From: Streptomyces seoulensis
GTDB taxonomy: Bacteria > Actinomycetota > Actinomycetes > Streptomycetales > Streptomycetaceae
DNA: 64,000 nt
Reading direction: 5' to 3'
Assembly: GCF_004328625.1 (NCBI RefSeq)
Contig: NZ_CP032229.1
Coordinates: 3,596,001 to 3,660,000, forward strand
In this document: piece by piece, positions 1 to 51,233 of the stretch
Layout: each line of letters begins with the position of its first letter
Numbering within the stretch: the stretch's first letter is position 1
Notes under the pieces: generated by a model
The model's database searches: none
What the model was told of the DNA's origin: nothing
Seen by the model: only the letters and a program-made list of their open reading frames with translations
Made by a program: the position numbers and the translations under genes

Positions 1-178
1 CGAGACGTACGACTTCTTCGGGATCGTCTTCGACGGCCACCCGGCCCTCACCCGGATCATGATGCCGGACGACTGGCAGGGCCACCCGCAGCGCAAGGAC
101 TACCCCCTCGGCGGCATCGCCGTCGAGTACAAGGGCGCCCAGATCCCGGCTCCGGACCAGCGGAGGTCCTACTCGTGA
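1..178 (+). CDS. nuoC: NADH-quinone oxidoreductase subunit C, 3' end only
   Basis: Only the last 58 codons are present, read from base 2 to the TGA at 176-178. The fragment contains the NuoC hallmark in which a Phe-Gly-Ile run is followed by a GHP and then a [16 protein letters not shown] stretch just before the C-terminus, matching the 30-kDa subunit of complex I. NuoC sits in the peripheral arm and helps NuoD and NuoB form the quinone-reduction module. The stop overlaps the GTG of nuoD by 4 nt (GTGA), so the two are translationally coupled. The 5' part and nuoA/nuoB lie outside the window. Confidence 0.93.
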
Positions 179-1497
179 GCACTCCCCACGCAACCGGCCG
201 CGCCACCACCGAGGGGACCGTCTACACGGTCACCGGCGGCGATTGGGACGAGGTCGTACAGACCGCGGCCAAGGCGGACGACGAGCGCATCGTCGTCAAC
301 ATGGGCCCGCAGCACCCGTCCACCCACGGAGTGCTCCGGCTCATCCTGGAGATCGAGGGCGAGACGGTCACCGAGGCCCGCTGCGGCATCGGCTATCTGC
401 ACACCGGCATCGAGAAGAACCTCGAGTTCCGCACCTGGACGCAGGGCACCACCTTCGTCACGCGGATGGATTACCTGACGTCCTTCTTCAACGAGACCGC
501 CTACTGCCTCGCCGTCGAGAAGCTGCTCGGCATCGAGGAGCAGATCACCGAGCGGACCGACATCATCCGGGTGCTCCTGATGGAGCTGAACCGGCTGTCG
601 TCGCACCTGGTGTGCATCGCCACCGGCGGCATGGAGCTGGGCTCCACCACGATCATGATCTACGGGTTCCGCGACCGGGAGATGATCCTCGACATCTACG
701 AGCTGATCACCGGCCTGCGCATGAACCACGCGTACATCCGCCCCGGCGGACTCGCGCAGGACCTGCCGCCCGGCGCGGTCGACCAGATCCGCGAGTTCGT
801 CAAGAAGATGCGGAAGAACCTCCCGGAGTACGACAAGCTCGCCACCGGGAACCCCATCTTCAAGGCCCGTATGCAGGACGTCGGCCACCTCGATCTGGCC
901 GGCTGCATGGCGCTCGGCGCCACCGGCCCGATCCTGCGCTCCACCGGCCTGCCGCACGACCTGCGCAAGGCCCAGCCGTACTGCGGTTACGAGAACTACG
1001 ACTTCGACGTGCCCACCGCCGAGACATGCGACTCCTACGGCCGTTTCCTGATCCGGCTGGAGGAGATGCGCCAGTCGCTGAGGATCATCGAGCAGTGCCT
1101 GGACCGGCTCCAGCCGGGACCGGTCATGGTCGCCGACAAGAAGATCGCCTGGCCCGCGCAGCTCGCGCTCGGCCCGGACGGGCTCGGCAACTCGCTGGAC
1201 CACATCAAGAAGATCATGGGCACCTCCATGGAGGCCCTGATCCACCACTTCAAGCTGGTGACCGAGGGCTTCCGGGTCCCGCCGGGCCAGGCGTACGCGG
1301 CCGTCGAGTCGCCCAAGGGCGAACTCGGCGTGCACGCCGTCTCCGACGGCGGCACCCGCCCCTTCCGGGTCCACTTCCGCGACCCGTCCTTCACCAATCT
1401 CCAGGCCATGGCGGCGATGTGCGAGGGCGGCCAGGTCGCCGACGTCATCGTGGCCGTGGCGTCCATCGACCCCGTGATGGGAGGCGTCGACCGGTGA
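175..1497 (+). CDS. nuoD: NADH-quinone oxidoreductase subunit D (49-kDa subunit)
   Basis: A 440-residue protein, the usual length for an actinobacterial NuoD. It has the signature [12 protein letters not shown] near residue 43 and [13 protein letters not shown] just after. These carry conserved positions that line the quinone pocket and contact cluster N2 in NuoB; the fold derives from the large subunit of NiFe hydrogenases without the metal ligands. It forms the quinone-binding cavity of the proton-pumping NADH:menaquinone oxidoreductase at the inner face of the membrane. The GTG start overlaps the nuoC stop, and the stop overlaps the nuoE start (GTGA). It is the only nuoD in the window, which matters because the second nuo cluster has none. 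Confidence 0.97.
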
Positions 1498-23969: not shown

Positions 23970-23971
23970 AT

Positions 23972-34556: not shown

Positions 34557-35615
34557 TCAGCCGACGACCGTCCAGCTGTCCCCGCCCGCCAGCAGCGTCG
34601 CCAGATCCCCCTTGCCCTGCTGCTCGATCGCGGTGTCCAGCTGCTCGGACATCAGGCTGTCGTAGACCGGCCGGTCCACCGCCCGGAACACCCCGATCGG
34701 GGTGTGGTGCAGGGTGTCCGGGTCGGCCAGCCGGGACAGCGCGAAGGCGGTGGTGGGCGAGGCCGCGTGCGCGTCGTGGACCAGCAGGTCCGCCTCGTTG
34801 TCCGGGGTCACGGTGACCACCGTCAGCTCGCCGGTCCGGTCCCGTACGACGCCCCGCGAGCCGTCCGCGCCGAACCGCACCGGCTGCCCGTGCTCCAGCC
34901 GGATCAGCGCCTCGTCCGCCCGCTGCTTGTCCTTGAGGGCGTCGAAGGCACCGTCGTTGAAGATGTTGCAGTTCTGGTAGATCTCGATCAGCGCGGTGCC
35001 CGGGTGGTCGGCGGCCGCCCGCAGCACCTCGGTCAGATGCTTGCGGTCGGAGTCGATGGTCCGGGCGACGAACGACGCCTCCGCGCCCAGCGCCAGCGAC
35101 ACCGGGTTGAACGGCGCGTCCAGCGACCCCATCGGCGTCGACTTGGTGATCTTGCCGAGTTCGGAGGTCGGGGAGTACTGGCCCTTGGTGAGCCCGTAGA
35201 TCCGGTTGTTGAACAGCAGGATCTTCAGGTTCACATTGCGGCGCAGGGCGTGGATCAGATGGTTGCCGCCGATGGACAGGGCGTCCCCGTCACCGGTGAC
35301 CACCCACACCGACAGATCCCGCCGCGAGGAGGCGAGCCCGGTCGCGATGGCCGGGGCGCGGCCGTGGATGGAGTGCATCCCGTAGGTGTTCATGTAGTAC
35401 GGGAAACGCGACGAGCAGCCGATGCCCGAGACGAAGACGATGTTCTCCCGCGCCAGCCCCAGCTCCGGCATGAACCCCTGCACGGCCGCGAGGATCGCGT
35501 AGTCCCCGCAGCCGGGGCACCAGCGGACCTCCTGGTCGGACTTGAAGTCCTTCATCGACTGCTTGCCCTCGGCCTTGGGGACAAGCTGGAGCAGCTCGCG
35601 TGCGGAGTCAGTCAT
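34557..35615 (-). CDS. korB: 2-oxoacid:ferredoxin oxidoreductase, beta subunit
   Basis: 352 residues. VRWCPGCGDYAILAAVQ near residue 30 holds an Fe-S ligand pair, and GDGDALSIGGNHLIHALRRNVN is the thiamine-diphosphate motif (GDG...N). With KorA it oxidatively decarboxylates 2-oxoglutarate (or a similar 2-oxoacid) with CoA to succinyl-CoA and reduced ferredoxin. The ATG at 35615 overlaps the korA stop by 8 nt, giving coupled translation. Its stop is 15 nt from the convergent HxlR stop. Confidence 0.93.
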   Translation of the reverse strand: MTDSARELLQLVPKAEGKQSMKDFKSDQEVRWCPGCGDYAILAAVQGFMPELGLARENIVFVSGIGCSSRFPYYMNTYGMHSIHGRAPAIATGLASSRRDLSVWVVTGDGDALSIGGNHLIHALRRNVNLKILLFNNRIYGLTKGQYSPTSELGKITKSTPMGSLDAPFNPVSLALGAEASFVARTIDSDRKHLTEVLRAAADHPGTALIEIYQNCNIFNDGAFDALKDKQRADEALIRLEHGQPVRFGADGSRGVVRDRTGELTVVTVTPDNEADLLVHDAHAASPTTAFALSRLADPDTLHHTPIGVFRAVDRPVYDSLMSEQLDTAIEQQGKGDLATLLAGGDSWTVVG

Positions 35616-37536
35616 CGATGGCCTCCTTGAGCGCGGTGGCGAGCTGTTCCGCCTTGAACGGCATGCCGTTGACCTGGTTGAACGAGCGGGCGTCGACCAG
35701 GTACTTCGCCCGGATCAGCAGGGCGAGCTGCCCCAGGTTCATCTCGGGGACCACCACCTTGTCGTACCCCTTCAGCACCTCGCCGAGGTTGGCGGGGAAG
35801 GGGTTGAGGTGGCGCAGATGCGCCTGTGCGATGGATTCGCCGGCCGTGCGCAGCCGCCGTACCGCCGCCGTGATCGGGCCGTACGTCGAGCCCCAGCCGA
35901 GCACCAGCGTCCGGGCGCCGTCCGGGTCGTCGACCTCGATGTCCGGGACGTCGATGCCGTCGGTCTTGGCCTGGCGGGTGCGGACCATCAGGTCGTGGTT
36001 GGCCGGGTCGTAGGAGATGTTGCCCGTGCCGTCCTGCTTCTCGATGCCGCCGATGCGGTGTTCGAGCCCGGGTGTGCCGGGCACCGCCCAGGGGCGGGCC
36101 AGCGTGTGCGGGTCGCGCTTGTACGGCCAGAAGACCTCGGTGCCGTCCTCCAGCGTGTGGTTGGGACCTTGCGCGAACTGCACCTGGAGATCCGGGAGTT
36201 CGTCGAGGTCCGGGATGCGCCAGGGCTCGGAGCCGTTGGCCAGGTAGCCGTCGGAGAGCAGGAACACCGGGGTGCGGTAGGTGACCGCGATCCGGGCCGC
36301 CTCCAGCGCCGCGTCGAAGCAGTCGGCCGGGGTGCGCGGGGCCACCACCGGGACCGGCGCCTCGCCGTTGCGCCCGTACATCGCCTGGAGCAGGTCGGCC
36401 TGCTCGGTCTTGGTCGGCAGACCGGTCGACGGCCCGCCGCGCTGGATGTCGATCACCAGCAGCGGCAGCTCCAGCGAGACCGCGAGCCCGATCGTCTCGC
36501 TCTTGAGCGCCACCCCGGGACCGGAGGTCGTCGTCACCGCGAGCGAACCGCCGAACGCCGCGCCCAGCGCCGCGCCGATGCCCGCGATCTCGTCCTCGGC
36601 CTGGAAGGTCCGCACACCGAAGTTCTTGTGCTTCGACAGCTCGTGCAGGATGTCGGAGGCCGGGGTGATCGGGTACGAGCCCAGGAACAGCGGGAGATCG
36701 GCCTGCCGGGAGGCCGCGATCAGCCCGTAGGCCAGGGCCAGGTTGCCGGAGATGTTGCGGTAGACACCGGGCGGGAAGGCCCGCGCGGCCGGTGCCACCT
36801 CGTAGGAGACGGCGAAGTCCTCCGTCGTCTCGCCGAAGTTCCAGCCCGCCCGGAACGCGGCCACGTTGGCCGCCGCGATGTCCGGCTTCTTGGCGAACTT
36901 GGTGGTCAGGAACTTCTCGGTTGCCTCGGTCGGCCGGTGGTACATCCAGCTCAGCAGCCCCAGCGCGAACATGTTCTTGCTGCGCTCGGCCTCCTTGCGG
37001 GAGAGGTCGAACTCCTTCAGCGCCTCCACCGTGAGCGTGGTCAGCGGCACCGGGTGCAGGTGATAACCATCGAGCGAGCCGTCGTCCAGCGGGGAGTCGG
37101 CGTACCCGACCTTCGCCAGGGCCCGCTTGGTGAACTCGTCCGTGTTGACGATGATCTCGGCGCCGCGCGGCAGGTCGCCGACGTTGGCCTTCAGGGCGGC
37201 GGGGTTCATGGCGACCAGCACGTTCGGCGCGTCGCCCGGGGTGAGGATGTCGTGGTCGGCGAAGTGGAGCTGGAAAGAGGAGACGCCGGGCAGGGTGCCG
37301 GCGGGCGCGCGGATCTCGGCGGGGAAGTTGGGAAGGGTGGAGAGGTCGTTGCCGAAGGACGCGGTCTCCGAGGTGAACCGGTCCCCGGTGAGCTGCATAC
37401 CGTCACCGGAGTCCCCCGCGAACCGGATGATCACCCGGTCCAGGCGCCGTACGTCCTTCGCTCCGCCCGGTCTGCGCTGCTCACCCGCGGGGTTCTCGTC
37501 GGCCTGCTCCGCTGGGCTGCTGACCTGACTGGTCAC
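35608..37536 (-). CDS. korA: 2-oxoacid:ferredoxin oxidoreductase, alpha subunit (gamma-alpha fusion)
   Basis: 642 residues. The N-terminal ~220 residues are a gamma domain (RLDRVIIRFAGDSGDGMQLTGDRF), followed by the alpha (pyrimidine-binding) domain with GSYPITPASDILHELSKH, FQAEDEIAGIGAALGAAFGG and TTTSGPGVALKSE. This fused layout is typical of actinobacterial and archaeal-type KOR. There is no ferredoxin domain, so a separate ferredoxin is needed as acceptor. I chose the GTG at 37536 for the AAGGAGGT site before it; the frame runs on to 37668. It is the first gene of korAB. Confidence 0.93.
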   Translation of the reverse strand: MTSQVSSPAEQADENPAGEQRRPGGAKDVRRLDRVIIRFAGDSGDGMQLTGDRFTSETASFGNDLSTLPNFPAEIRAPAGTLPGVSSFQLHFADHDILTPGDAPNVLVAMNPAALKANVGDLPRGAEIIVNTDEFTKRALAKVGYADSPLDDGSLDGYHLHPVPLTTLTVEALKEFDLSRKEAERSKNMFALGLLSWMYHRPTEATEKFLTTKFAKKPDIAAANVAAFRAGWNFGETTEDFAVSYEVAPAARAFPPGVYRNISGNLALAYGLIAASRQADLPLFLGSYPITPASDILHELSKHKNFGVRTFQAEDEIAGIGAALGAAFGGSLAVTTTSGPGVALKSETIGLAVSLELPLLVIDIQRGGPSTGLPTKTEQADLLQAMYGRNGEAPVPVVAPRTPADCFDAALEAARIAVTYRTPVFLLSDGYLANGSEPWRIPDLDELPDLQVQFAQGPNHTLEDGTEVFWPYKRDPHTLARPWAVPGTPGLEHRIGGIEKQDGTGNISYDPANHDLMVRTRQAKTDGIDVPDIEVDDPDGARTLVLGWGSTYGPITAAVRRLRTAGESIAQAHLRHLNPFPANLGEVLKGYDKVVVPEMNLGQLALLIRAKYLVDARSFNQVNGMPFKAEQLATALKEAIDD

Positions 37537-37562
37537 TGAACTGGACCTCCTTCGAGGCGGCC

Positions 37563-37587
37563 GTCCGGGGGCGGTCTTCCCCCGGAC
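37563..37587 (-). promoter_or_regulatory. Hairpin in the korA leader
   Basis: 9-bp perfect stem (37563-37571 with 37579-37587), 7-nt loop, ~27 nt before the korA GTG. It could be an attenuator, a processing site or a read-through barrier from the two-component operon upstream. No other evidence is available. Confidence 0.4.
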
Positions 37588-37687
37588 CAATCCCAGGGTC
37601 AACCCTACGTCGCTCAGGGTCGGCTTCCGAGGATCGCTTTGGTATCTCCCGTTATGTGGACTCGCCACACGGCCCAGTCTCGGTGTG

Positions 37688-38359
37688 TCAGGAGTTCAGA
37701 TAGGTCAGCACCGCCAGAACACGCCGGTGGTCTCCGTCGCTCGGGGTCAGGCCCAGCTTCATGAAGATGTTGCTGACGTGCTTCTCCACCGCGCCGTCGC
37801 TCACCACGAGCCGCCGGGCCACCGCCGAGTTGGTCCGCCCCTCCGCCATCAGCCCCAGCACCTCCCGCTCGCGCGGGGTCAGCGCGGCCAGCACGTCCTG
37901 CTTGCGGCTGCGGCCCAGCAGCTGCGCCACCACCTCCGGGTCCAGCGCAGTACCGCCCTGCGCGACCCGCTCCACGGCGGCGACGAACTCGCGCACGTCC
38001 GCGACCCGGTCCTTGAGCAGATAGCCGACGCCCCGGCTGGAACCGGCCAGCAGTTCGGTGGCGTAGCGCTCCTCCACGTACTGCGACAGCACCAGCACCC
38101 CGAGGTCGGGGTGGCGGCCGCGCAGCTCCACGGCGGCCCGCACCCCTTCGTCGGTGTGCGTCGGCGGCATCCGCACGTCCGCCACCACCACGTCCGGCAG
38201 CTCGTCCCGGCCGGCCAGCTCCGCGATGGTGGCGAGCAGCGCCTCCGCGTCGGCGACCCCGGCCACCACCTCGTGGCCGAGGTCGGTCAGCAGCCGGGTC
38301 AGCCCCTCTCTGAGCAGCACCGAGTCCTCGGCGATGACCACACGCACCTTGTTCTCCAC
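37688..38359 (-). CDS. NarL/LuxR-type response regulator
   Basis: 223 residues. The receiver domain has the acidic pair in [14 protein letters not shown], the phosphoacceptor Asp in [11 protein letters not shown], and the conserved Lys in YLLKDRV. The C-terminal LuxR helix-turn-helix is [25 protein letters not shown] ... [14 protein letters not shown]. It would be phosphorylated by one or both adjacent kinases. I chose the GTG at 38359 (GGGGAATC before it); an ATG at 38404 also has a site (CGGAG) and adds 15 residues. The target is unknown; nuo2 (divergent) and korAB (downstream) are candidates. Confidence 0.92.
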
Positions 38360-38414
38360 GATTCCCCGAGCCCCCACACGTCTGTCGACAAGGAGGCCCA
38401 GCATTTCAGCTCCG

Positions 38415-39734
38415 TCAGGCGCGCCAGGGCAGTTCCGCCGTCACGACGGTCGGTCCGCCGGGCGGGGAGTCCACCACCAGCACTCCGTCGACGGCGCCGA
38501 GGCGTTCGGCGAGTCCGGCGAGGCCGGTGCCGCGGCCGGGGTCTGCTCCGCCGATTCCGTCGTCGCGGATTTGGAGCATGAGGTGGTGGGGGGTGTGCCA
38601 GAGGTCGAGGGTGGCGTGGTGGGCGTGGCTGTGTTTGCTGATGTTCTGGAGGAGTTCGCTGGCGGTGTAGTAGGTGATGCCTTCGATGGCGGGTGTGGGT
38701 CGGGTGGGGAGGTCGACGGTGAGGGTGACGGGGACGGTGCAGCGGGTGGCGATGTGGGAGAGGGCTGCGTCGAGTCCTCGGTCGGTGAGGATGGCGGGGT
38801 GGATGCCTCGGGCGAGGTCGCGGAGTTCTTTGAGGGCGGTTTTGACTTCGCCGTGGGCTTCTTCGACCATGCGGGCGGCTGTTTCGGGGTCGTGGTGGAG
38901 TTTTTCCTTGGCGAGTCCGAGTCCCATGGCGAGGTTGACCAGGCGTGCCTGTGCGCCGTCGTGCAGGTCGCGTTCGATGCGGCGGAGGTCGGCTGCGGCG
39001 GTGTCGACGACGACACCCCTGTCCGACTCCAGCTCCTCCACGCGTGCCGTCAGCCGGGAGGGGCCGAGCAGTCCGCGCACCAGCAGCCCGTCCACGGTGG
39101 TCAGGCCCCGCAGCAGCCACGGCGTGAGCAGCGTGAACACCAGCCCGACCAGCGCGGTCGCGGTGATCTCCCAGGGGTTGTCCAGGTAGACGCTGTGGTG
39201 GTCGTCCCCATAGAGCTGGATGCCGCCCTGCCCGGCCCACATCGGGAACACCCAGAACCACAGCGGGTACGTCAGCAGCGCCCAGCCGTACGTCCAGAAG
39301 CTGATGGCCAGCGAGAAGGAGAACACCGCCCACGGGAAGTGGACCAGCGCGTACACCAGGTGCCGCCAGGACGAGCCGCTCTTGAGCACCGCGCCGAGCC
39401 AGGACAGCGGCCCCGGTCCACCGGGCCTCAGCGGCTCCGGCGCGGCCACCTTCACCTTCAGCAGCGCCCCGGCCCGCGCCCGCTCCAGTGTCCCGAAGCC
39501 CCGGCAGCCGACCAGGCCCAGCGCGAGGACCGGCACCCCGACGAAGGTCACCAGCAGACCGGCGCCGAGCGAGACCATCGTGACCGTCCAGACGAACAGC
39601 GCGACGGCCACCGGCAGCCCGGTCAGTACGTATCCCAGCTCCCGCCAGGTCCGCGCCTCCAGCGGCGCCCGCAGCGCGGCGGGGAGGCGGTGGCGGTCCG
39701 GCTCTTCCCGGTACGGCGTGTAGTGCGTGGCCAT
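38415..39734 (-). CDS. Sensor histidine kinase (HisKA_3), copy 2
   Basis: 439 residues. The N-terminal ~210 residues form a membrane sensor domain with four hydrophobic segments (DUF-type sensor shared with copy 1). The dimerisation/phosphoacceptor site is [16 protein letters not shown]; the ATPase has [12 protein letters not shown] (N box) and [10 protein letters not shown] (G1) with [11 protein letters not shown] (G2). It differs from copy 1 mainly in the sensor and the extreme C-terminus; the block encoding the core (38537-39036) is practically identical to copy 1. The stop lies ~55 nt before the response regulator start. Confidence 0.93.
38537..39036. repeat. Near-identical 500-bp block, copy in kinase 2
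   Basis: Matches 39989-40488 at all but two of 500 positions by eye (38949 C/T, silent; 39020 T/G, silent). It encodes the phosphoacceptor and ATPase core. Sequence outside diverges abruptly at both ends. Codons in it favour GAA, AAA, GGA, CGA and CTC, unlike the GAG/AAG/CTG-rich flanks. Confidence 0.93.
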
Positions 39735-39839: not shown

Positions 39840-41039
39840 CTACCGTCCGGCGTGGTGTTCGTCCGCGCGGTCCCGCCAGGGCAGCTCGGCGGTGATGACC
39901 GTCGGTCCGCCGGGCGGGGAGTCCACGACGAAGACTCCGTCCACCGCGCCGAGCCGCTCCACGAGTCCGGCGAGGCCTGATCCGTGGGCGGGGTCTGCTC
40001 CGCCGATTCCGTCGTCGCGGATTTGGAGCATGAGGTGGTGGGGGGTGTGCCAGAGGTCGAGGGTGGCGTGGTGGGCGTGGCTGTGTTTGCTGATGTTCTG
40101 GAGGAGTTCGCTGGCGGTGTAGTAGGTGATGCCTTCGATGGCGGGTGTGGGTCGGGTGGGGAGGTCGACGGTGAGGGTGACGGGGACGGTGCAGCGGGTG
40201 GCGATGTGGGAGAGGGCTGCGTCGAGTCCTCGGTCGGTGAGGATGGCGGGGTGGATGCCTCGGGCGAGGTCGCGGAGTTCTTTGAGGGCGGTTTTGACTT
40301 CGCCGTGGGCTTCTTCGACCATGCGGGCGGCTGTTTCGGGGTCGTGGTGGAGTTTTTCCTTGGCGAGTCCGAGTCCCATGGCGAGGTTGACCAGGCGTGC
40401 TTGTGCGCCGTCGTGCAGGTCGCGTTCGATGCGGCGGAGGTCGGCTGCGGCGGTGTCGACGACGACACCCCGGTCCGACTCCAGCTCCGCTATCCGGCGC
40501 TCCAGCTCGTCCGACGGCGCCAGCAGGGCGCGGGCCAGCGCCCGGTCCACGTTCGCCAGACCCCGCGCCAGGTGACCCAGCAGCGGCCACAGCACGAAGA
40601 ACGAGACCAGCATCGTGGTGAAGGTCAGCACGCCCCAGGGCAGCCGGATCAGGCAGTAGAGCAGCGACCGCCAGCCCACCGGGTCCCGCAGCGCCTGCCA
40701 CAGCCGCCGCACCACCCCGCCGCCCCGCGCGAGGGGCAGCGGCGACGGCTCCGGCACCCGCACCCCGAGCAGCACGCGCACCCGCGCTCGCTCCAGCTTC
40801 CCCAGCAGCCGGGCGCCCAGCAGGGAGCCCGCCAGCAGCGGCAGCCCGAGTACCGTGACGGTGAGGCCCCCGCTCACCGACAGCACGGTGACCGCGTACA
40901 CGAAGCCCACCACCGCCAGCGGCAGGTTCAGCAGGAGATGCGCGATCTCCTTCCAGGTGTACGCGTCGAAGGCGAGCCGGGCGGACGGCGGACGGCCGGG
41001 GTCGCCGGCCGGTCCGGCGGCGGAAGCGGGAGCGGTCAT
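39840..41039 (-). CDS. Sensor histidine kinase (HisKA_3), copy 1
   Basis: 399 residues. Four hydrophobic segments occur in the first ~190 residues (sensor domain with TWKEIAHLLLNLPLAVVGF), followed by the same [16 protein letters not shown] phosphoacceptor and ATPase core as copy 2. The C-terminus ([21 protein letters not shown]) is related to but distinct from copy 2. It is the promoter-proximal gene of the kinase-kinase-regulator operon (105 nt to copy 2) and is divergent from the second nuo cluster. Two kinases for one regulator suggests dual signals or heterodimers. Confidence 0.93.
   Translation of the reverse strand: MTAPASAAGPAGDPGRPPSARLAFDAYTWKEIAHLLLNLPLAVVGFVYAVTVLSVSGGLTVTVLGLPLLAGSLLGARLLGKLERARVRVLLGVRVPEPSPLPLARGGGVVRRLWQALRDPVGWRSLLYCLIRLPWGVLTFTTMLVSFFVLWPLLGHLARGLANVDRALARALLAPSDELERRIAELESDRGVVVDTAAADLRRIERDLHDGAQARLVNLAMGLGLAKEKLHHDPETAARMVEEAHGEVKTALKELRDLARGIHPAILTDRGLDAALSHIATRCTVPVTLTVDLPTRPTPAIEGITYYTASELLQNISKHSHAHHATLDLWHTPHHLMLQIRDDGIGGADPAHGSGLAGLVERLGAVDGVFVVDSPPGGPTVITAELPWRDRADEHHAGR
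39989..40488. repeat. Near-identical 500-bp block, copy in kinase 1
   Basis: Partner of 38537-39036 at a constant offset of 1452 bp. See that entry for mismatches. It is a direct repeat and could recombine to fuse the two kinases in frame. Confidence 0.93.
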
Positions 41040-41260: not shown

Positions 41261-41677
41261 GTGCGGGAGACGTTGGGGGTGACGACGGTCGCCGCGGGCG
41301 GCACCCCGTCGGACTACTTCGGGTCCTACTCGGTCGTGGGCCTGCTCGCCGTCGTCGGCGTGCTCTTCGTCGCGGCCGCGTTCGGCGCCGGCCGCCTGCT
41401 GCGGCCCGTGGTGCCGACCCCCGAGAAGCTCATGACCTACGAGTGCGGCGTCGACCCCGTCGGGGAGGGCTGGGCCCACACCCAGGTCCGGTACTACGTC
41501 TACGCCTTCCTGTACGTCATCTTCGCCGTCGACTCGATCTTCCTGTTCCCCTGGGCGACGGTCTTCGCCGCCCCCGGCTACGGCGCGGCCACCCTGGTGG
41601 AGATGTTCATCTTCCTGGGCTTCCTCGCCGTCGGCCTGCTGTACGCCTACAAGAAGGGCGTCCTGACATGGACGTGA
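41261..41677 (+). CDS. nuoA2: NADH-quinone oxidoreductase subunit A, second copy
   Basis: 138 residues, three transmembrane helices. The TM1-TM2 loop holds [40 protein letters not shown], a typical NuoA signature including the loop Cys and the acidic residues of TM2. I chose the GTG at 41261 after GAGGGACGGACG; the frame extends upstream through non-conserved sequence. It overlaps nuoB2 by 10 nt and begins a ten-gene cluster A2-B2-C2-H2-I2-J2-K2-L2-M2-N2. Confidence 0.93.
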
Positions 41678-42273
41678 ACCCGGCCGCCCCCGAGCCGGTG
41701 CTGCTGCCCGAGCCGAAGCGTCTGGGCGCGCTCTCCCGGCTGGCCCCCGAGCCGATGAAGATCGTCCTCAACTGGGGCCGCCGCTACTCGCTCTGGGTCT
41801 TCAACTTCGGCCTCGCCTGCTGCGCGATCGAGTTCATCGCCGCGTCGATGGCCCGCCACGACTTCATCCGGCTCGGCGTCATCCCCTTCGCCCCGGGCCC
41901 CCGTCAGGCGGACCTGATGGTCGTCTCCGGCACGGTCACCGACAAGATGGCGCCCGCCGTGAAGCGGCTGTACGAGCAGATGCCCGAGCCGAAGTACGTC
42001 ATCTCCTTCGGCGCCTGCTCCAACTGCGGCGGGCCGTACTGGGACTCCTACTCCGTCACCAAGGGCGTGGACCAGATCATCCCCGTCGACGTGTACGTGC
42101 CGGGCTGCCCGCCGCGCCCCGAGGCGCTGCTCCAGGGCATCCTCAAGCTCCAGGAGAAGATCGCCCGCGAGTCCCTGGCGGAGCGGTACGGTTCCCGGCC
42201 GTCCGCCGCCGCGCTCCAGAGCGACCTGGTGCGTCCGCCCGCCGTTCCCTCTTCGGAGGGGGACGCGCGATGA
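41668..42273 (+). CDS. nuoB2: NADH-quinone oxidoreductase subunit B, second copy
   Basis: 201 residues. The four ligands of cluster N2 are present: the adjacent pair in [15 protein letters not shown], and [12 protein letters not shown]. Thus the terminal Fe-S centre that reduces quinone in complex I is intact. The ATG at 41668 lies inside the end of nuoA2; the stop overlaps nuoC2. In complex I NuoB packs against NuoD, for which this cluster has no gene. Confidence 0.94.
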
Positions 42274-43631
42274 CCGCGCCCGGCTGGCTGCCCGCCCCCG
42301 TGGACGAACTCTTCGGCCCCGACGCCACCGCCGAGGAGTCGTACGACGTCCTCACCGTCGACGTGCCTCCCGCCGCGTGGCTCACCGCCCTTGAGACGGC
42401 CCGTACGACGCTGACCTGCACCTACTTCGACTGGCTGAGCGCGGTCGACGAACCCGGCACCGGGTTCCGGGTCTCCGCCCACGTCGTCGCCCTGCACCCG
42501 GTCCGCCGCCTGCTGGTGCGTACGACCGTCCCGCACGAGGCGCCGGTGCTGCCGAGTGCCGTCGGCGTGTACGCGGGTGCGGCGTGGCACGAGCGGGAGA
42601 CCCACGAGATGTTCGGGGTCGACTTCACGGGCCACCCTGGCCTCGACCACCTGCTCCTCCCGGAGAACTTCGAGGGCCACCCTCTCCGCAAGGACTTCGT
42701 CCTCGCCGCCCGCGTCGCCAAGGCGTGGCCCGGCGCGAAGGAGCCCGGCGAGTCGGAACACGGCGGCCCGAAGCGCCGCCAGATGCTCCCACCGGGCGTC
42801 CCCGACCCCAACGAATGGGGCCCCCTGAAGGGCCAACTCCCACCCGCCCCGTCGCGTCCCGCGCGGGGGGCGGCGGGAGAGCGCCCGGCCCGGCGTGCGG
42901 GCGCCGCGGGCGAGCCGGGAGCCGAGGCGGTTCGTCCGCGCCGGGCTCGGAGTGCGGGGGAGGGTTCGGCGAGTCAGGTTGCTCCGGAGCCGGGGGCTGC
43001 TGCGCCTCGGCGGGCTCGGAGTGCGAGTGAGGGTTCGGCGAGTCAGGTTGCTCCGGAGCCAGGGGCTGCTGCGCCGCGCCGGGCTCGGAGCGCGGGCGAC
43101 GGGTCTGTGAGTCAGGTTGCTGCGGAGTCCGGGGCTGCTTCGCCCCGGCGGACGCGTAGTGCGAGTGAGGGTTCGGCGAGTCAGGGTACGGCGGAGCCGG
43201 GTGCCGGGGCTCCGGCGCGGCGGATGCGGAGTGCCTCGGAGGGGTCCGCGAGTCAGGCTGCTCCGGAGGGTGCGGAGGCCCCTGCCGGGACGCCCGCCGA
43301 GGCACCGAGGGGGCCGCGCAGGTCGCGCAGCGCCTCCCAGGGATCGGCCTCGCAGCGAACCGGGACGCCCGAGCCTGCCGAGCCGACCGAGTCCTCGGAG
43401 CCACCCGAGCCGAGCGGGCCCACCGAGCCGACCGAGCCCGCACAGCCGACCGAGCCCGCACAGCCGGCCGAGCCGAAGAAGCCGGCCGAGCCCGCGCAGC
43501 GTCGCAGCGCGGACGCGCCCTGGCATCACGCGCGGCCCGCCTTCGAGGAGGCCGACGAGTCGCCGAAGGCACCTGCTCCTGAGCAGGAGACCACCGACAC
43601 CCCCGACGACCCCGCAGGAGGCGCGCAGTGA
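42270..43631 (+). CDS. nuoC2: NADH-quinone oxidoreductase subunit C, second copy, with repeat tail
   Basis: 453 residues, against ~200-250 for a normal NuoC. Residues 1-~190 are a NuoC domain: [52 protein letters not shown]. From ~224 to ~372 there are six imperfect copies of a 23-residue Arg/Ser/Ala/Gly/Gln unit, then a Glu-Pro-Thr-rich stretch (EPTEPAQP repeats) and an acidic end. The tail is certainly in frame up to the overlap with nuoH2 (GTGA). It is predicted disordered; its role is unknown. It is not a NuoCD fusion: no NuoD-like sequence is seen. Confidence 0.9.
42939..43385 (+). repeat. Tandem 69-bp coding repeats in nuoC2
   Basis: Copies start at 42939, 43008, 43077 and 43146 (the first three exactly 69 nt each), then two more diverged copies to about 43385. 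Copies 1 and 2 differ in only a few bases. Each copy encodes a variant of [19 protein letters not shown]. The repeats have more T and G-rich codons than the rest of nuoC2. Confidence 0.9.
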
Positions 43632-44596
43632 ACGACGTGCTGGACGTCGCCCTGCGACTCGTCGTCGTGTTCGTGGTGTTCCTGACGTTCCCGCTGGTCA
43701 TCGGCCAGACCGAGCACAAGGTGATGGCCCACATGCAGGGCCGCCTCGGCCCGATGTACGCGGGCGGCTTCCACGGCTGGGCCCAACTGGTCGCCGACGG
43801 AGTCAAGTTCGCGCAGAAGGAGGACGTGGTCCCGGCGGGAGCCGACCGCCGCGTCTTCCAGCTCGCCCCGGCCGTGGCCCTGCTGCCGTACCTCCTCGTA
43901 CTCCTCGCCATTCCCATCGGCCCGAGCGCCGGCGCCGTCGGCCAAGTGCTGGACGCCGGCATCTTCTTCGTGCTCGCGGTGATGGGCGTGGGCGTCCTCG
44001 GCTCGCTGATGGCGGGCTGGGCCAGCGCCAACAAATTCTCCCTGCTGGGCGGCCTGCGCACCGCCGCCCAGCTGCTCGCGTACGAACTCCCGATGCTGCT
44101 CGCCGCCGCCTCCGTGGCGATGGCGGCCGGCACGGTCTCGCTGCCCGGCATCGTGAACGCCTTCCATTGGTGGTGGCTGCCCTGGCAGCTCACCGGCGCG
44201 GTGGTGTTCTTCGTCGCCGGTCTCGCCGAGCTGCAACGGCCGCCGTTCGACATGCCGGTGGCCGACTCGGAGATCATCTTCGGCGCGTACACCGAGTACA
44301 CCGGCCTGCGCTTCGCCCTGTTCCTGCTCGCGGAGTACGCGGGGATCGTCGTCCTGTGCGGTCTGACCACCGTCCTCTTCCTCGGCGGCTGGCACGGCCC
44401 CTGGGGCGCCGACGGGCTCGGCTGGGTGTGGACCCTGGTGAAGACCGCGCTCCTCGCCTTCCTGGTGATCTGGCTCCGCGTCACCTACCCCCGGCTGCGT
44501 GAGGACCAGCTCCAGAAGCTGTCCTGGACCGTCCTCGTCCCGCTCGCCCTCGCCCAGATCGCCCTCACCGGCGTCGTCAAGGTGGTGACCGCCTGA
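43628..44596 (+). CDS. nuoH2: NADH-quinone oxidoreductase subunit H, second copy
   Basis: 322 residues, eight hydrophobic segments, no C-terminal tail (nuoH has one). Recognisable parts are [21 protein letters not shown] and AEYAGIVVL. The usually conserved quinone-loop reads [18 protein letters not shown] where the first copy has [17 protein letters not shown]; one acidic position of the PE-x-E motif is Val. That loop touches NuoD and the quinone entrance in complex I, so its drift fits with the absence of nuoD2. The GTG start overlaps nuoC2; the stop overlaps the nuoI2 ATG by one base. Confidence 0.93.
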
Positions 44597-45165
44597 TGTC
44601 CGTCCCCTTCTCCGGCCTGGCCAAGGGACTCGCCGTCACCCTGCGCACGATGACGAAGAAGACGGTCACCGAGCAGTACCCCGACGTGCAGCCCGACCTC
44701 CCGCCCCGCACGCGCGGCGTGATCGGCCTGTTCGAGGAGAACTGCACGGTCTGCATGCTCTGCGCCCGTGAGTGCCCCGACTGGTGCATCTACATCGACT
44801 CCCACAAGGAGACCGTCCCGGCCGCCGCCCCCGGCGGCCGCGAGCGCAGCCGGAACGTCCTCGACCGGTTCGCCATCGACTTCTCCCTCTGCATGTACTG
44901 CGGCATCTGCATCGAGGTCTGTCCCTTCGACGCGCTGTTCTGGTCCCCGGAGTTCGAGTACGCCGAGACCGACATCCGCGAACTGACCCACGAGCGCGAC
45001 AAGCTCCGCGAGTGGATGTGGACCGTCCCGGCCCCGCCCGCGCTGGACCCGCACGCGGAGGAGCCGAAGGAGATCGCCGCCGCCCGCAAGAGCGCCGACA
45101 AACTGGCCGCCGCCCAGGCCGCCGAGCAGGCCGAACAGAACCCGGACCAGGAGGGAGGACAGTGA
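44596..45165 (+). CDS. nuoI2: NADH-quinone oxidoreductase subunit I, second copy
   Basis: 189 residues. Both 4Fe-4S motifs are intact: [12 protein letters not shown] and [12 protein letters not shown]. The N-terminal amphipathic helix ([13 protein letters not shown]) is as in NuoI. In an enzyme without NuoE/F/G, this subunit would be the natural docking site for a ferredoxin, as proposed for related ferredoxin-dependent complexes. A charged Ala/Glu/Gln tail ends the protein. The stop overlaps nuoJ2. Confidence 0.94.
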
Positions 45166-45761
45166 GCCTCGCCGCCACCGCCCCGCACGGCTTCCTCTCC
45201 CCGACCGGCGTCGAGATCGCGTTCCTCCTCGTCGGCCTGGTCACCCTCGGCGCCGCGCTGATCACCGTCACCACCCGCCAGCTGGTGCACGCCGCCCTCT
45301 GGCTGGTGGTCGCCCTCGGCGGACTGGCCGTCGAATACCTCCTGCTCACCGCCGAGTTCATCGCCTGGGTGCAGGTCCTCATCTACGTCGGCTCCGTCGT
45401 CGTCCTCCTCCTCTTCGGGCTGATGCTCACCCGGGCCCCCATCGGCCGCTCCCCGGACGCCGATTCGGGCAACCGGCTGCCCGCCCTCGTCGTCGCCGTG
45501 GGCGCGGCGGGCGCCCTGGTCTGGGTGGTGGCGGACGCGTTCCGCGCCTCCTGGATCGACCTGGACGGCCCGGCCGCCGGCACCACCCGCGTCACCGGCG
45601 AGAGCCTCTTCCGGCACTGGGTACTGCCCTTCGAGGCGCTGTCCGTGCTGCTCCTCGCGGCCCTGGTCGGCGCGATCGTGCTGTCCCGCAAGACCACGGC
45701 GGAGACGCCCGCCACCCCGGACCCGGCCAAGGTCCCCGGCGACCAGGAAGGCGCCCGCTGA
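45162..45761 (+). CDS. nuoJ2: NADH-quinone oxidoreductase subunit J, second copy
   Basis: 199 residues, five helices, including [19 protein letters not shown] (TM3 signature). It lacks the ~100-residue charged tail of the first copy. The GTG at 45162 has an excellent GAGGGAGGACA site. The stop shares a base with the nuoK2 ATG. Confidence 0.93.
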
Positions 45762-46141
45762 TGCACCTCGCCTACGCCGCCGTGCTCGCCGCCCTCCTCT
45801 TCTGCACCGGCCTCTACGGCGTCCTCGCCCGCCGCAACGCGATCCTGGTCCTGATGTCGGTCGAGCTGATGCTCAACGCCGTCAACCTCAACCTCGTCGC
45901 CTTCGACGTCTGGCTCAGCCGGGCCGCGAAGGACACCCTGCACTCCGGCCAGGCGCTGACCCTGTTCACCATCGCCGTCGCGGCCGCCGAGATCGGCATC
46001 GGCCTGGCGATCGTCCTCGCCGTCCACCGCGACCGGGGCACCGCCGACATCGACCGGCTCCGCGACACCGCCGAGACCCCCGGCGACGACCCCGACCATC
46101 CCGACGCCTCCGGGACCGAGAAGGCTGAGGCCACCGCGTGA
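45761..46141 (+). CDS. nuoK2: NADH-quinone oxidoreductase subunit K, second copy
   Basis: 126 residues: a normal ~100-residue NuoK core ([14 protein letters not shown] with the helix-2 Glu, [14 protein letters not shown] with the helix-3 Glu) plus a ~25-residue acidic tail ending GTEKAEATA. Overlaps nuoL2 by 4 nt. Confidence 0.93.
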
Positions 46142-48132
46142 CCACCACCACCCTCGCCGTCCTCGTCCCCCTCCTGCCCTTCCTCGGCGCCGTCGCCGGA
46201 CTCCTGCTGGGCCGCACCGCGCCCGGCTTCGTCCGCCCGCTCGCCGTGCTGCCGCCGCTGGCCTCGCTCGTGCTGGCCGCGCTGGTCGCGGTCCGGCAGG
46301 GCGGCGGCCGGGCCGTCGACGCGTACACCCTGCTGACGCCCACCGGCTCGGTCCCCGTCGACCTGGCGCTGCACATCGACGGGTTCGCCGCGCTCGTCGC
46401 GATCCTGGTGGCCTTCGTGGCGACCTGCGTGCAGATCTACTCCACCGGCTACCTGCGCGACGACCCCCGCTACCCCTCCTACGCTGCCCTCGTCTCCCTC
46501 TTCACCTCCGCGATGCTCCTCGTCGTCTACTCCGGCGATCTGATCGTGCTGCTGGTCGGCTGGGAGGTCATGGGCATCTGCTCCTACTTCCTCGTCGGCC
46601 ACTACTGGGGCACCCCCGAGGCCCGCGCCGCCTCCCTCAAGGCGTTCCTGGTCACCAAGCTCGGTGACGTCCCGTTCCTGATCGGCCTGTTCGCGCTCGG
46701 CACGGACGCCGGGTCCTTCCGCATCACGAGCGTCCTCGACACGGTGGCGAGCGGCGGACTCGACCACCCCACCCTGATCGCGCTGCTGCTCCTCGCGGGC
46801 GTGGCCGGGAAGTCGGCGCAGTTCCCGCTGCACACCTGGCTTCCCGACGCGATGGCGGGCCCCACGCCCGTCTCCGCGCTGATCCACGCGGCCACGATGG
46901 TCGCCGCCGGTGTCTACTTCACCGCCCGTCTCCTCCCCGTGTTCGAGGCGTCCGCCGCCGCGATGACCGTCCTCGCGGTGATGGCCGCCGTCACCATGCT
47001 GGGCTCCGGCCTCGCCGCCCTCGCCCAGGACGACATCAAGCGCGTCCTGGCCTACTCGACGATCGGCCAGCTCGGCTACATGACCGGCGCCCTCGCCGTC
47101 GGCGACCGCGGTGCCGCCGTCTTCCACCTCCTCGCCCACGGCGCCTTCAAGGCGCTGCTGTTCCTCGCCGCCGGAGCCGTCATCCACGCCGCCGGCACCA
47201 ACTCGCTGGCCGCCATGTCCCGGATGAGCCACCTGCGCGACCGCGTCCCGGACGCCTTCTGGACGATGACCGTGGCCCTGCTCGCGCTGGCCGCGATCCC
47301 TCCGTTCAGCGGGTTCTTCTCCAAGGAGTCCGTCCTCGGCGCCGCCGAGCGCCTCGCCACCGGCCACCCCGGCCCGGCACCGGGCGCCGCCGGCTGGATC
47401 GTGCTCGTCGCCGCGCTGGCCACGGCCGTGCTCACCGCCGCCTATGCCACCCGCCTCTGGCTGCTGGCCTTCCGGGGCCGGGGCGTCGAGGCCCCGGATC
47501 ACGGCCGTCAGCCGCTCACCATGACCGTGGTGCTCTGGGTGCTGGCCGTGCCCTCGCTGGCCTTCGGCGCGCTCGCCTACCGCACGCTGCCCGGCTGGTT
47601 CGACGGCGAAAGCCTCGCGCCCACCCTGTTCACCTCCCTCCTCGGCACCGGCCTCGCCGTGGTCGGCGGGCTGCTGGCCTACGGCGCCTGGCAGCGGGCC
47701 GCCGCCCGCGCGCCCCGGGTCCCGCTGGGCGCCGTCGCCGCCCATCCGGAGGGCGACGCGGGCCTGGTCGAGGCCGAGGCCATCGCCGCCCACGAACCGG
47801 CGTACGGCGACATCGCCGGGGCCCCCGACCCGGCCGACCCCGGCCGCCTGCTGCTCGGCCCGCTGTACGGGCCCGCCGCCTCGGGCTTCCACCTGGACGC
47901 CGTCTACTCGGCGCTGTTCGTCCGCCCGGTGCTGGGCGCGGCGAACCTGGTCCGCTTCCTGGACCGCGAGGTCGTCGACACCTACGTACGCGGCGCCGCC
48001 GCCCTGCCCCGGCTGCTCGGCGCGGCCGTACGGCGGGCGCAGACCGGCAATGTGCAGACCTATGTGAGCGCGCTGCTCGCCGGCACCGTCGTCCTGACGG
48101 TCGCCGTCCTCCTCGTCGCCTCGGGAGCGTGA
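46138..48132 (+). CDS. nuoL2: NADH-quinone oxidoreductase subunit L, second copy
   Basis: 664 residues. [18 protein letters not shown] carries the TM5 Glu and [18 protein letters not shown] the TM7 Lys; [14 protein letters not shown] follows. All marks of an active proton-translocating antiporter-like subunit are kept. A His/Glu-rich insert near residue 540 precedes the C-terminal helix. The start is GTG; a 6-nt gap separates it from nuoM2. Confidence 0.95.
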
Positions 48133-48138
48133 GCGAGC

Positions 48139-49713
48139 GTGATCGGTATCAGCGGATCAGTGATGCAGTTCCTTCTGGCGTTCGTCGTCGCCGTGCCGCT
48201 CCTCGGCGCGGCCGCCGCCCTCCTGCCCGCCCCGCCCGGACTGAAGGGCAGGTCGCCCGAGCAGGCCGTGCTCCGGCACGGCGTGACCGTGACCGGCGTG
48301 GTCCTCGTCGCCGCCATCGTCCTGGCGCTCGGCCTCGACCACGACCACCCCTCGAAGATGCAGGCCACGACCGACATCAGCTGGATTCCCGCACTCGATG
48401 TGCGCATCCACCTCGGCATCGACGGCATCTCCCTCCCCCTTCTTCTCCTGACCGCGCTGCTGACCTTCCTCTGCGCGCTCTACTCCTACTTCAAGCCGCC
48501 CACGGGGCCCTCCCCGAAGGCGTTCACCGCCCTGGTCCTGCTGCTCGAAGGGGGCACCCTCGCCTCCTTCGCCGTGCTCGACCTCGTGCTGTTCTTCCTG
48601 GCCTTCGAGACCGTGCTGATCCCGATGTACTTCCTCATCGCCCGCTGGGGCGGCGAGGGCCGGACCCGGGCCGCGTGGAAGTTCATCCTGTACACGCTGC
48701 TCGGCTCCGTGATCATGCTGCTCGGCCTGCTCCTGATCGGGATCAAAGCGGGCACGTTCGACATGGTGGCACTCGCCACTGACAACGGCCGGTCGCTGAC
48801 CACATCCGTGCAGGTCATCGCCGTTCTGGCGATCGGGATCGGGCTCGCGGTGAAGGCGCCGATGTGGCCGCTGCACAGCTGGCTCCCGGACGCCCACACC
48901 GCCGCCCCGACCGTCGGCTCGGTGCTGCTGGCGGGCGTCCTGCTGAAGATGGGCACGTACGGGTTCGTCCGCATCCTGCTCCCGGTCGCGCCCGACGGCT
49001 TCCGGGTCTTCGCGCCGTACCTCGCCGCGTTCGCGGTGGTCGGGATCATCTACGGGTCGCTGGCCTGCCTCTCGCTGGCCAGGCGGGGTGCCAAGGGCGA
49101 CCTGAAGCGGCTGATCGCGTACTCCTCGGTCGGCCACATGGGCTTCGTGCTGCTCGGCATCTCCACCATGACCCCGACCGGCGTCAACGGCGCCCTGTTC
49201 GCCAACATCGCCCACGGACTCATCACCGGCCTGCTGTTCTTCCTGGTCGGCGCGCTCAAGGACCGTACCGGCAGCACCGACCTCGACACCCTGGCCGCGC
49301 ACAGCGGGGGCGCCCTGTACGGCAGGGCCCCGCGCCTCGGCGGGCTGCTCGCCTTCGGTGCCGTCGCCTCGCTCGGGCTGCCCGGCCTCGCCGGGTTCTG
49401 GGGCGAGATGCTCGCCCTGTTCGGCGCGTTCCAGCCCGCCGCCGGGCTCAGCCGGGCCGCCTACCTGGTCTTCCTGGCGATCGGCGCCTTCGGCACCCTG
49501 CTGACCGCCGCCTACCTGCTGGTCGTGGTCCGCCGCGTCTGCATGGGCGACCCGCGCCAGGACCTGCCCGAACTCGCCGACGTACGCGGCTACGAGTTCG
49601 CTGCCTGGACCCCGCTCGTCGTCCTCACCGTCCTCGCCGGACTCTGGCCCAGGGCCCTGCTCGGCCTCAGCGACCCGGCCGTGCAGCAGCTCCTCGCAGG
49701 AGGCACCCGATGA
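48139..49713 (+). CDS. nuoM2: NADH-quinone oxidoreductase subunit M, second copy
   Basis: 524 residues. FFLAFETVLIPMYFLIARW carries the TM5 Glu, KAPMWPLHSWLPDAHTAAP the TM7 Lys, and RLIAYSSVGHMGFV follows. GTG start at 48139 following AGCGAGC. The stop overlaps the nuoN2 ATG (ATGA). Confidence 0.95.
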   Translation: MIGISGSVMQFLLAFVVAVPLLGAAAALLPAPPGLKGRSPEQAVLRHGVTVTGVVLVAAIVLALGLDHDHPSKMQATTDISWIPALDVRIHLGIDGISLPLLLLTALLTFLCALYSYFKPPTGPSPKAFTALVLLLEGGTLASFAVLDLVLFFLAFETVLIPMYFLIARWGGEGRTRAAWKFILYTLLGSVIMLLGLLLIGIKAGTFDMVALATDNGRSLTTSVQVIAVLAIGIGLAVKAPMWPLHSWLPDAHTAAPTVGSVLLAGVLLKMGTYGFVRILLPVAPDGFRVFAPYLAAFAVVGIIYGSLACLSLARRGAKGDLKRLIAYSSVGHMGFVLLGISTMTPTGVNGALFANIAHGLITGLLFFLVGALKDRTGSTDLDTLAAHSGGALYGRAPRLGGLLAFGAVASLGLPGLAGFWGEMLALFGAFQPAAGLSRAAYLVFLAIGAFGTLLTAAYLLVVVRRVCMGDPRQDLPELADVRGYEFAAWTPLVVLTVLAGLWPRALLGLSDPAVQQLLAGGTR

Positions 49714-51233
49714 CCGCCCTGGCCGCACCGGCGGTGAACGGCCTGATCCAGTCCGTCGACTGGCTCGCCATCGCCCCGCCCGTCATCGTCGCCGTCACGG
49801 CCCTCGCCGTACTCGTCACCGACCTGTTCCTGCCCGAGGCCCGCAAGCCGCTCCTCGGCCGGCTCTGCGTCGCCGGCCTGGCCGCCGCCGCGCTCATGCT
49901 GCTGCCGCTGCTGGACGGCGACCGAGCCACCTTCTGCCTGACCGGCTCCACGCGCGCGTGCAGCTACACCGCCGACCACTTCACGGTCGTCATCCAGTTC
50001 CTCGTCCTCGGCGGCGCGCTGCTCGCGGCCCTGCTGTCCGTGACCGGCGTCCAGGACGACCGGCGGCGCGTCCCGGCCGGGGAGTTCTGGTTCCTGCTGC
50101 TCTCCTCGGCGGCCGGCGCCGCCCTGCTCCCCGCCTCCCGCGACCTCGCCACCCTGATCGTCGCCCTTGAGGTCGCCTCCCTGCCCGCCTTCGCCCTGGT
50201 CGGCATCCGGCACGGCGAGGCCCGCTCGGCCGAGGCCGCCCTGAAGTTCTTCCTCTCCTCGGTCACCGCCACCGCCGTCAGCCTGATGGGCGTCAGCTTC
50301 GTCTACGCCGCCACCGGCACCCTGCACCTCACCGAGATCGCTCGCCGCCTGCCCGGCGTCGACGGCCAGCTCCACACGCTCGTCCAGACCGGCGTCGTCC
50401 TCACCCTGGTCGGCTTCGCCTTCAAGACCGCCGCCGTGCCCTTCCACTTCTGGGTGCCCGAGACCTACGTGGGCGCGCCGCTCCCGGTCGCCGCCTACCT
50501 CTCGGTCGTCGGCAAGGCGGTCGGCTTCTCCGGCCTCATCCTCGTCACCGTGATCGCCTTCCCGTCGTACGCCGACGTCTGGGGCCCCGCCCTCGCCGTG
50601 CTGGCCGCGCTCACGATGACCGCGGGCAACGCCGGCGCCCTGCGGCAGCGGGCCACGCGCGCGTACAGCGCCGTACGCCTGCTCGCCTGGTCCTCCATCG
50701 GCCAGGCCGGCTACCTCCTGGTGCCGATCGCCGCCGCCGGATACACGCGGGACGGCCAGAAGGCGATCGGCTCCACCGTCGCCTACGCCCTGATGTACGC
50801 CGCCGTGAACCTCGGCGCCTTCGCGGTCGCCGCCCTGGTGGGCCGTACGAAGCCGCTCAACCGGATCGCCGACTACCGGGGCCTGTACGCCACCAACCCC
50901 GTCACCGCCGTCCTCCTGGCCTTCTTCCTGCTGTGCCTGGCCGGGCTCCCGCCGGGCGTGATCGGCCTGTTCGCCAAGGTCACGGTGTTCTCGGCAGCCG
51001 TGGACGCCGGACTCGGCTGGCTCGCGGTGGTCATGGCCGTCAACGTGGTGATCGCGCTCTACTACTACCTCCGGTGGACGTCCCTGCTGTTCCGCGCCCC
51101 CGAGGGCGAGCCCGTACGCCACCGCGTCCCCGCCCCCCTCACCGTCGCGCTCGCCCTCACCGGGGCCGTCGGCGTGGTCCTCTCCGGCGCTCCCCAGCTG
51201 GTGCTGCGCTTCGCCGCGACGACCCTCTTCTGA
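49710..51233 (+). CDS. nuoN2: NADH-quinone oxidoreductase subunit N, second copy
   Basis: 507 residues. [17 protein letters not shown] gives the TM5 Glu; [19 protein letters not shown] gives the TM7 Lys; [14 protein letters not shown] follows. It is the last gene of the cluster; the ATG is preceded by CAGGAGGCACCCG. No clear terminator follows before htpX, 146 nt away, so read-through into htpX-yccF is possible. Confidence 0.95.

Follow-up and report, generated by a model that had tools for sequence, protein, structure and literature searches.

A probable second complex I without an NADH module in Streptomyces seoulensis, with a separately encoded NuoD2 and relatives lacking the membrane arm

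The DNA analyzed here is a 64,000-nucleotide stretch of the Streptomyces seoulensis chromosome (contig NZ_CP032229.1, positions 3,596,001 to 3,660,000), which we call the window and whose coordinates we use unless another sequence is named. Besides the main operon for complex I, it carries a second cluster of complex I genes, nuo2, composed of ten genes arranged head to tail at 41261-51233. Each was matched by an NCBIfam subunit model, several with scores under the curated cut-offs of the models:

41261..41677, plus strand: nuoA2 (NCBIfam NuoA models, best 119.2 bits)
41674..42273, plus strand: nuoB2, N2 cluster subunit with Cys51/52/117/147 (PRK06411/NuoB, 226 bits, above cut-off; Cys conservation)
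42270..43631, plus strand: nuoC2 (TIGR01961 NuoC_fam, E 9e-26)
43628..44596, plus strand: nuoH2, quinone-tunnel membrane subunit (NuoH models, 299 bits; loop signature)
44596..45165, plus strand: nuoI2, with two 4Fe-4S clusters, a ninth Cys, and an N-terminal helix (NuoI models; alignment)
45162..45761, plus strand: nuoJ2 (NuoJ models)
45761..46141, plus strand: nuoK2 (NuoK models)
46138..48132, plus strand: nuoL2, antiporter-like subunit (TIGR01974, above cut-off; key residues)
48139..49713, plus strand: nuoM2, antiporter-like subunit (TIGR01972, 549 bits; key residues)
49710..51233, plus strand: nuoN2, antiporter-like subunit (TIGR01770, 309 bits; key residues)

The model scan found no nuoD, nuoE, nuoF, or nuoG within the cluster. 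This gene content agrees with the original prediction, made from the sequence of the window, of a second complex I without an NADH module that consists of A2, B2, C2, and H2 to N2 and adjoins korAB and a two-kinase regulatory operon. The cluster aligns with another Streptomyces locus (L151) at 88.5% DNA identity across 9.3 kb of aligned pieces. The Streptomyces nuo2 cluster is already in print (PMC3765725, PMC8388888, PMC9239103); the available text of PMC8388888 and PMC3765725 lists no nuoC2, and that of PMC9239103 describes the cluster as lacking NuoC, D, E, F, G, and L, with unclear function. The NuoC2 found here has its 30-kDa domain in approximately the first 150 residues, followed by a repeat-rich C-terminal tail. 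The region for this tail (42936-43493) holds tandem repeats of 69 bp (42936-43268) and shorter ones, and the tail is rich in Ser, Ala, Pro, and Glu.

The same chromosome carries another NuoD gene beyond the window. PF00346 matched two genes in the S. seoulensis genome, one of them in the main operon:

175..1497, plus strand: nuoD of the main complex I operon, encoding NuoD1 (PF00346 match at 637-1494; alignment)

The other (G000:C1:3471983-3473131, equal to L004:8983-10131) encodes NuoD2, a protein of 382 residues, and lies 164.5 kb from nuoB2. The statement of the original prediction that there is no NuoD is therefore true of the cluster and wrong for the genome, in which all eleven subunits A, B, C, D, and H to N are encoded, ten in nuo2 and NuoD2 elsewhere. 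For streptomycetes, the separation of nuoD2 from nuo2 is already described in the available text of PMC8388888 and PMC3765725. The best solved relatives of NuoD2 are complex I D subunits, with NdhH (6hum) first at 276.7 bits and a lead of 1.9 bits.

We also searched the genome for an NADH module with PF01512, PF10588, and PF01257. NuoE and NuoG are single copy, both in the main operon, and no nuo neighbor turned up in the 3.5 kb examined around a second NuoF-type gene (L006, C1:1978619). Based on this search, we rejected both a hidden NADH module for nuo2 and, with no NuoEFG module of its own, a 14-subunit NADH:quinone oxidoreductase. The original prediction had called for a search for nuoD paralogues and had taken a second D, E, F, and G set elsewhere in the genome as evidence against itself; the paralogue was found, and of such a set only part exists. 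Judged by eye, the second NuoF-type protein has a ferredoxin-like C-terminal tail, and a multi-pass membrane protein adjoins it.

The occurrence of NuoD2 follows that of nuo2 across the class Actinomycetes. We drew 148 genomes evenly from the class (in 127, completeness is 90% or more and contamination no higher than 5%) and classed them for B2, D2, H2, and I2 by the matches listed; the counts and absences below hold among those matches. Fragments, among them one of 160 residues in G097, were scored as D2; G023, whose NuoD matches were all weak, was scored as lacking it. D2 and I2 were both present in 65 of the 148 genomes and both missing from 76, with D2 only in 2 and I2 only in 5, counts that treat related species as independent and in which absence from a draft genome is soft. 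Five of the seven mismatched genomes are less than 90% complete; the others are G004 (93%) and G070 (91%), where a contig end interrupts the cluster. In one genome of the class, G095 (locus L043), the nuo2 set is scattered: nuoB2 and nuoC2-H2 lie ∼4.5 kb apart with unrelated genes between them, and I2 lies further on.

Outside the class, we chose 20 loci from D2-type matches, and 16 of them hold an A2-B2-C2-D2-H2-I2-J2-K2-L2-M2-N2 operon, with D2 flanked by C2 and H2; in six of these operons, the main NuoL is the best match of the L gene, and L171 stops short of N2. The remaining four are two lone D2 genes (L172 and L174) and two other NuoD types (L185 and L186). Because D2 lies inside the other-class nuo2 operons, NuoD2 is probably the partner of nuo2 and completes the set. 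Together with the co-occurrence, this operon structure argues that NuoD2 is the cognate subunit of an 11-subunit complex I, into which the proteins would assemble physically.

The original prediction had suggested that nuo2, for lack of a NuoD, may borrow that of the main operon or use another acceptor. Borrowing of NuoD1 would fit a window in which nuo2 lacks nuoD and the main nuoD is present, but NuoD2 exists, is part of the operon in other classes, and tracks I2. In addition, no NuoD1 was found in G128, a 100% complete genome: its B, D, H, and I subunits are each encoded once and are all of the “2” type, and there is no match to main-type B, D, H, I, or F among the matches listed, an absence as firm as an assembly of 60 contigs permits. 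We therefore rejected borrowing at the level of gene content and regard it as highly improbable. The nuo2 complex seems able to be the sole complex I of a cell. Another proposal is that nuo2 products swap into the main complex I as a hybrid (PMC9239103, and for NuoL2/M2 PMC3765725, as far as their available text goes). The presence of both operons in one window and the conserved antisense RNAs on nuoL2/M2 described in the available part of PMC3765725 would suit such exchange, which we nonetheless consider improbable, given that the 11-gene set is complete and self-contained, that nuo2 is the only complex I found in G128 among the matches listed, and that D2, H2, and I2 carry family-specific signatures.

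The active site of NuoD2 is predicted to differ from that of the main enzyme, with Trp80 for a quinone-site Tyr and Arg57 for Thr. Where NuoD2 has HRG and RHDW, the aligned NuoD1 has HTG and RMDY, that is, Thr at the Arg57 position and Tyr at the Trp80 position, and alignments to solved chains likewise place Trp80 at a Tyr of known complex I. This Tyr of complex I NuoD has a role in the quinone site. Across 41 aligned D2 proteins (16 of the full type, 24 of a reduced type described below, and G030), there is no exception to Arg57 in the HRGXE site or to Trp80 in the R-x-(D/E)-W motif, and the quinone-site His31 is kept in 40; all three residues are kept in 16/16 D2 proteins of the other-class operons. 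The Trp80/Arg57 pattern across the D2 family is new here. Group 4 [NiFe] hydrogenases have homologous B and D subunits (formate hydrogenlyase and Mbh chains), but NuoD2 lacks the two Ni-binding CxxC pairs of their large subunit, its only cysteines being Cys267 and Cys288, and we rejected this identity for the complex.

The HRGXE-site Arg carries a dimethylation in complex I of mitochondria and Paracoccus, and Thermus has Thr in its place (PMC8042128, available text), and the human enzyme for methylation of NDUFS2 Arg85 is NDUFAF7 (PMC3829151, available text). In S. seoulensis, nuoD2 lies end to end with a gene for a PF02636 protein (64.3 bits) of the MidA/NDUFAF7 family of methyltransferases, whose best solved matches are a COG1565 protein (43.9 bits) and an NDUFAF7 homolog (20.9 bits). 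Methyltransferase and D2 are both present in 61 of the 148 class genomes, neither is present in 75, and each occurs without the other in 6, in a survey that scored at most 14 candidates per genome and may have missed some. The methyltransferase falls within the fetched D2 stretch in 33/41 class loci, and a relative (29 to 38% identity) adjoins nuoN2 in three of the 16 other-class operons (L179, L180, and L181). We predict that the methyltransferase methylates Arg57 of NuoD2 as an assembly step. The likeness to the NDUFAF7/MidA-NDUFS2 Arg85 system, as far as PMC3829151 was available, is a PF02636 methyltransferase beside a NuoD with the HRGXE Arg; the differences are that the methyltransferase here is distant in sequence and that methylation is only predicted. 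The co-occurrence of NuoD2 and methyltransferase is new here, and no description of the link was found in the literature searched, which left most subscription journals outside. In the other-class genomes with a lone D2-type gene (L172 and L174), HRAAEK stands in place of HRG and a methyltransferase relative lies less than 8 kb away.

The iron-sulfur (Fe-S) ligands that the original prediction had reported for N2 and N6 are present for N2, N6a, and N6b alike: all four cluster Cys in NuoB2 and the eight canonical Cys in NuoI2. NuoI2 has, in addition, a ninth conserved Cys (CPDWC) that is invariant in full, reduced, and other-class forms and absent from the main NuoI, and its N-terminal helix aligns with the helix of the main NuoI. 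The antiporter Lys/Glu residues, also predicted to be intact, align with the main set in NuoL2 (E143, K225, H250, and K396), NuoM2 (E137, K239, K270, and E423), and NuoN2 (E154, K239, K269, and K423). Such charged residues form the antiporter path in complex I. The reported loss of part of the acidic quinone loop of NuoH2 proved to be a real and family-wide change, but only a modest one: FDMPVADSE replaces the FDMPESEGD of NuoH1, and FDMP(V/I)A(D/E)xE is kept in 18/18 other H2-type proteins compared.

A candidate source of electrons is encoded near the cluster:

34557..35615, minus strand: korB, 2-oxoacid:ferredoxin oxidoreductase beta subunit (TIGR02177/PRK11866)
35608..37668, minus strand: korA, 2-oxoacid:ferredoxin oxidoreductase alpha subunit (TIGR03710, 659 bits, above cut-off)

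The two 4Fe-4S clusters of NuoI are the usual entry for ferredoxin. korA was found in 119 of the 148 class genomes, 64 of them with I2 and 55 without, and I2 occurs without korA in 6. It lies at most 6 kb from B2 or I2 in 44 of the 64 genomes holding both (26 with H2 and 18 without); in the other 20, it is on a different contig in 18 and far apart in 2. The suggestion that NuoI2 may accept electrons from ferredoxin is thus reasonable, and the co-occurrence check proposed with it found frequent neighbors that are not strictly tied to each other. KorAB, acting through ferredoxin, is a good but not universal donor candidate.

Taken together, our preferred reading, to which we assign a probability of roughly three in four, is that nuo2 and nuoD2 encode a second complex I without an NADH module, with NuoD2 as its cognate subunit, a predicted methylation of Arg57, and a membrane arm that seems dispensable. 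KorAB would oxidize 2-oxoglutarate to yield reduced ferredoxin, which would dock at NuoI2; electrons would then pass from N6a through N6b and N2 to quinone in the NuoB2/D2/H2 pocket, and the antiporter arm would pump protons. In the genomes with the reduced form, the same core in solution would deliver electrons to another acceptor.

Several observations weigh against this reading. Six I2 genomes, G128 among them, lack korA, and the 20 other-class loci showed no korA either, so a different donor must serve where it is absent. The 11-subunit complex could then be right and its donor something other than KorAB-reduced ferredoxin, such as flavodoxin, F420H2, or NADPH through an unlinked module; the 55 genomes with korA and no I2 are in line with this, and donors of the 11-subunit, NADH-module-free complex I are unsettled in the available text of PMC11238625. 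We hold another donor to be possible but rather unlikely in view of the 44 of 64 genomes in which korA is a neighbor, 18 of them without H2, and of the two 4Fe-4S clusters kept in NuoI2. The Trp for Tyr in NuoD2 could mean a changed acceptor instead of quinone, with the Trp80 pocket reducing another small molecule in full and reduced forms alike. The Trp of 41/41 and 16/16 D2 proteins and the loss of quinone-side NuoB residues from reduced forms point that way, but full forms keep His31, the NuoB PRQ motif, NuoH2, and the antiporter residues, which makes this alternative unlikely. As for the methyltransferase, it has no NCBIfam model match, was not found in the D2 genomes G116, G127, and G137 (all at least 97% complete), and is not within the fetched stretch in 8/41 D2 loci. 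The genes for D2 and the methyltransferase belong to a conserved block of housekeeping genes, judged by eye to be of the folate, pan, and nad types, and synteny may account for their closeness in the class. Finally, Fisher values on the co-occurrence ignore relatedness, and in reduced genomes D2 does not adjoin B2-C2-I2, where the partnership is one of co-occurrence.

The reduced form lacks the membrane arm. H2 was found in 41 of 70 I2 genomes, in all of which the NuoI2 match starts at residue 1 to 7; in 27 of the 29 without H2, it starts at residue 27 to 43 and the N-terminal helix is absent. One exception is G016, in which nuo2 is split by contig ends. The other, G030, has A2, B2, C2, three H2 fragments, and I2, with no J2 to N2 in the stretch, and looks like membrane-arm loss in progress. 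B2-C2-I2 without H2 thus occurs in 27 of the 148 class genomes, from 12 families of the sample, and in all 27 loci B2, C2, and I2 stand together without membrane-arm genes; D2 is present in 24 of these genomes. Four of the loci are on contigs shorter than 6 kb, with surroundings little known, and the absence is soft in G023, G042, and G060 (78 to 85% complete), where there was no NuoH at all. Among the matches listed, the I2 reading frame opens near the C2 stop. Neighbors are korAB or ordinary genes, and no replacement membrane-arm subunit was seen beside B2-C2-I2, where genes of the YajQ, HtpX, CorA, RarD, and polyprenyl synthase types were named by eye. Since the N-terminal helix of I2 can be aligned with the main NuoI helix, its absence from reduced forms is best read as a loss.

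The reduced forms keep the four NuoB2 cluster Cys in 26/26 cases (excluding the partial B2 of G027) and the nine NuoI2 Cys in 27/27. The NuoB2 residues of NW.RR.SLW, D..R.G, and PRQ are kept at at least 90% in full and other-class forms and at most 35% in reduced ones; in known complex I, these stretches face quinone and the membrane. We joined B2, D2, and I2 and built a tree from 34 such sets plus an outgroup set, whose branch is long. The reduced forms were one clade (support 100) with longer branches inside it, placed within the full forms by nesting nodes with support of 32 to 59. Reduced genomes include Motilibacter peucedani (G046), M. rhizosphaerae (G093), and Motilibacter sp. K478 (G064), whose NuoI2 proteins are annotated only as 4Fe-4S binding proteins. 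The main complex I mostly remains beside the reduced form: a NuoF match scoring 150 bits or more was found in 12 of the 13 reduced genomes scanned, and only weaker ones in G060 (78% complete).

The redox core B2-C2-D2-I2 seems to be the conserved part across the class, and the membrane arm seems dispensable. We lean toward the view that the core alone makes a soluble, often KorAB-linked Fe-S oxidoreductase in many Actinomycetes, Motilibacter included, with the Trp/Arg site of NuoD2 serving an acceptor that is not quinone. A reduced core docked on the main membrane arm is less likely, given that the NuoI helix (27/27) and the quinone-side residues of NuoB are lost and all cluster Cys are kept. 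The form without a membrane arm is new here; no description was found in the literature searched, within the same limits as above.

Among known systems, the complex of Desulfitobacterium hafniense, compared by its description in the available text of PMC11238625, likewise has A, B, C, D, and H to N, no N-module, and the 4Fe-4S ligands and antiporter residues. In contrast to it, nuoD here is detached from the operon, Trp takes the place of the quinone-site Tyr, a MidA-type methyltransferase lies beside NuoD2, and there are relatives without a membrane arm. Photosynthetic NDH-1 of cyanobacteria and chloroplasts also lacks an NADH module and takes ferredoxin input; its NdhH, the top solved relative of NuoD2 by 1.9 bits, differs in keeping the Tyr (RWDY in the alignment). 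The published accounts of Streptomyces nuo2 concern the same cluster, with nuoD2 separate in PMC3765725 and PMC8388888; in their available text, these and PMC9239103 contain no partner test, methyltransferase link, or membrane-free forms, which are contributed here.

Between korAB and nuo2 lie a regulator and two sensor kinases, in keeping with the two-kinase operon predicted there:

37688..38404, minus strand: NarL-type response regulator
38415..39734, minus strand: sensor kinase, NarL/UhpB-type, in the same operon as the regulator
39840..41039, minus strand: second sensor kinase, NarL/UhpB-type, in the same operon

In Streptomyces coelicolor, an atypical two-component system (SCO4596-SCO4598) adjoins nuo2 (SCO4599-SCO4608) (PMC9239103, available text). 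Based on position and content, we infer that the operon corresponds to the AbrC system of S. coelicolor, with the pairing of that name and the genes likewise inferred. The two kinase genes share an identical 412-base block (38537-38948 and 39989-40400; longest identical protein run, 166 residues) that looks like recent gene conversion. Elsewhere, the window holds a cyclic di-AMP riboswitch match on the minus strand (23874-24073; 40.2 bits, gathering threshold 38) and three tRNA genes (54074-54155, 58568-58640, and 58687-58759).

These results settle the puzzle of the missing NuoD of the nuo2 cluster, which would be part of a complete second complex I. The conserved neighbor KorAB offers a direct test, in a laboratory streptomycete, of the donor question for complex I without an NADH module. 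If the reduced form is as proposed, it represents a complex I core turned soluble again. If soluble, the B2-C2-D2-I2 forms would allow the quinone-side redox chemistry of complex I to be examined separately from proton pumping, and the acceptor of such an enzyme would become a question in itself.

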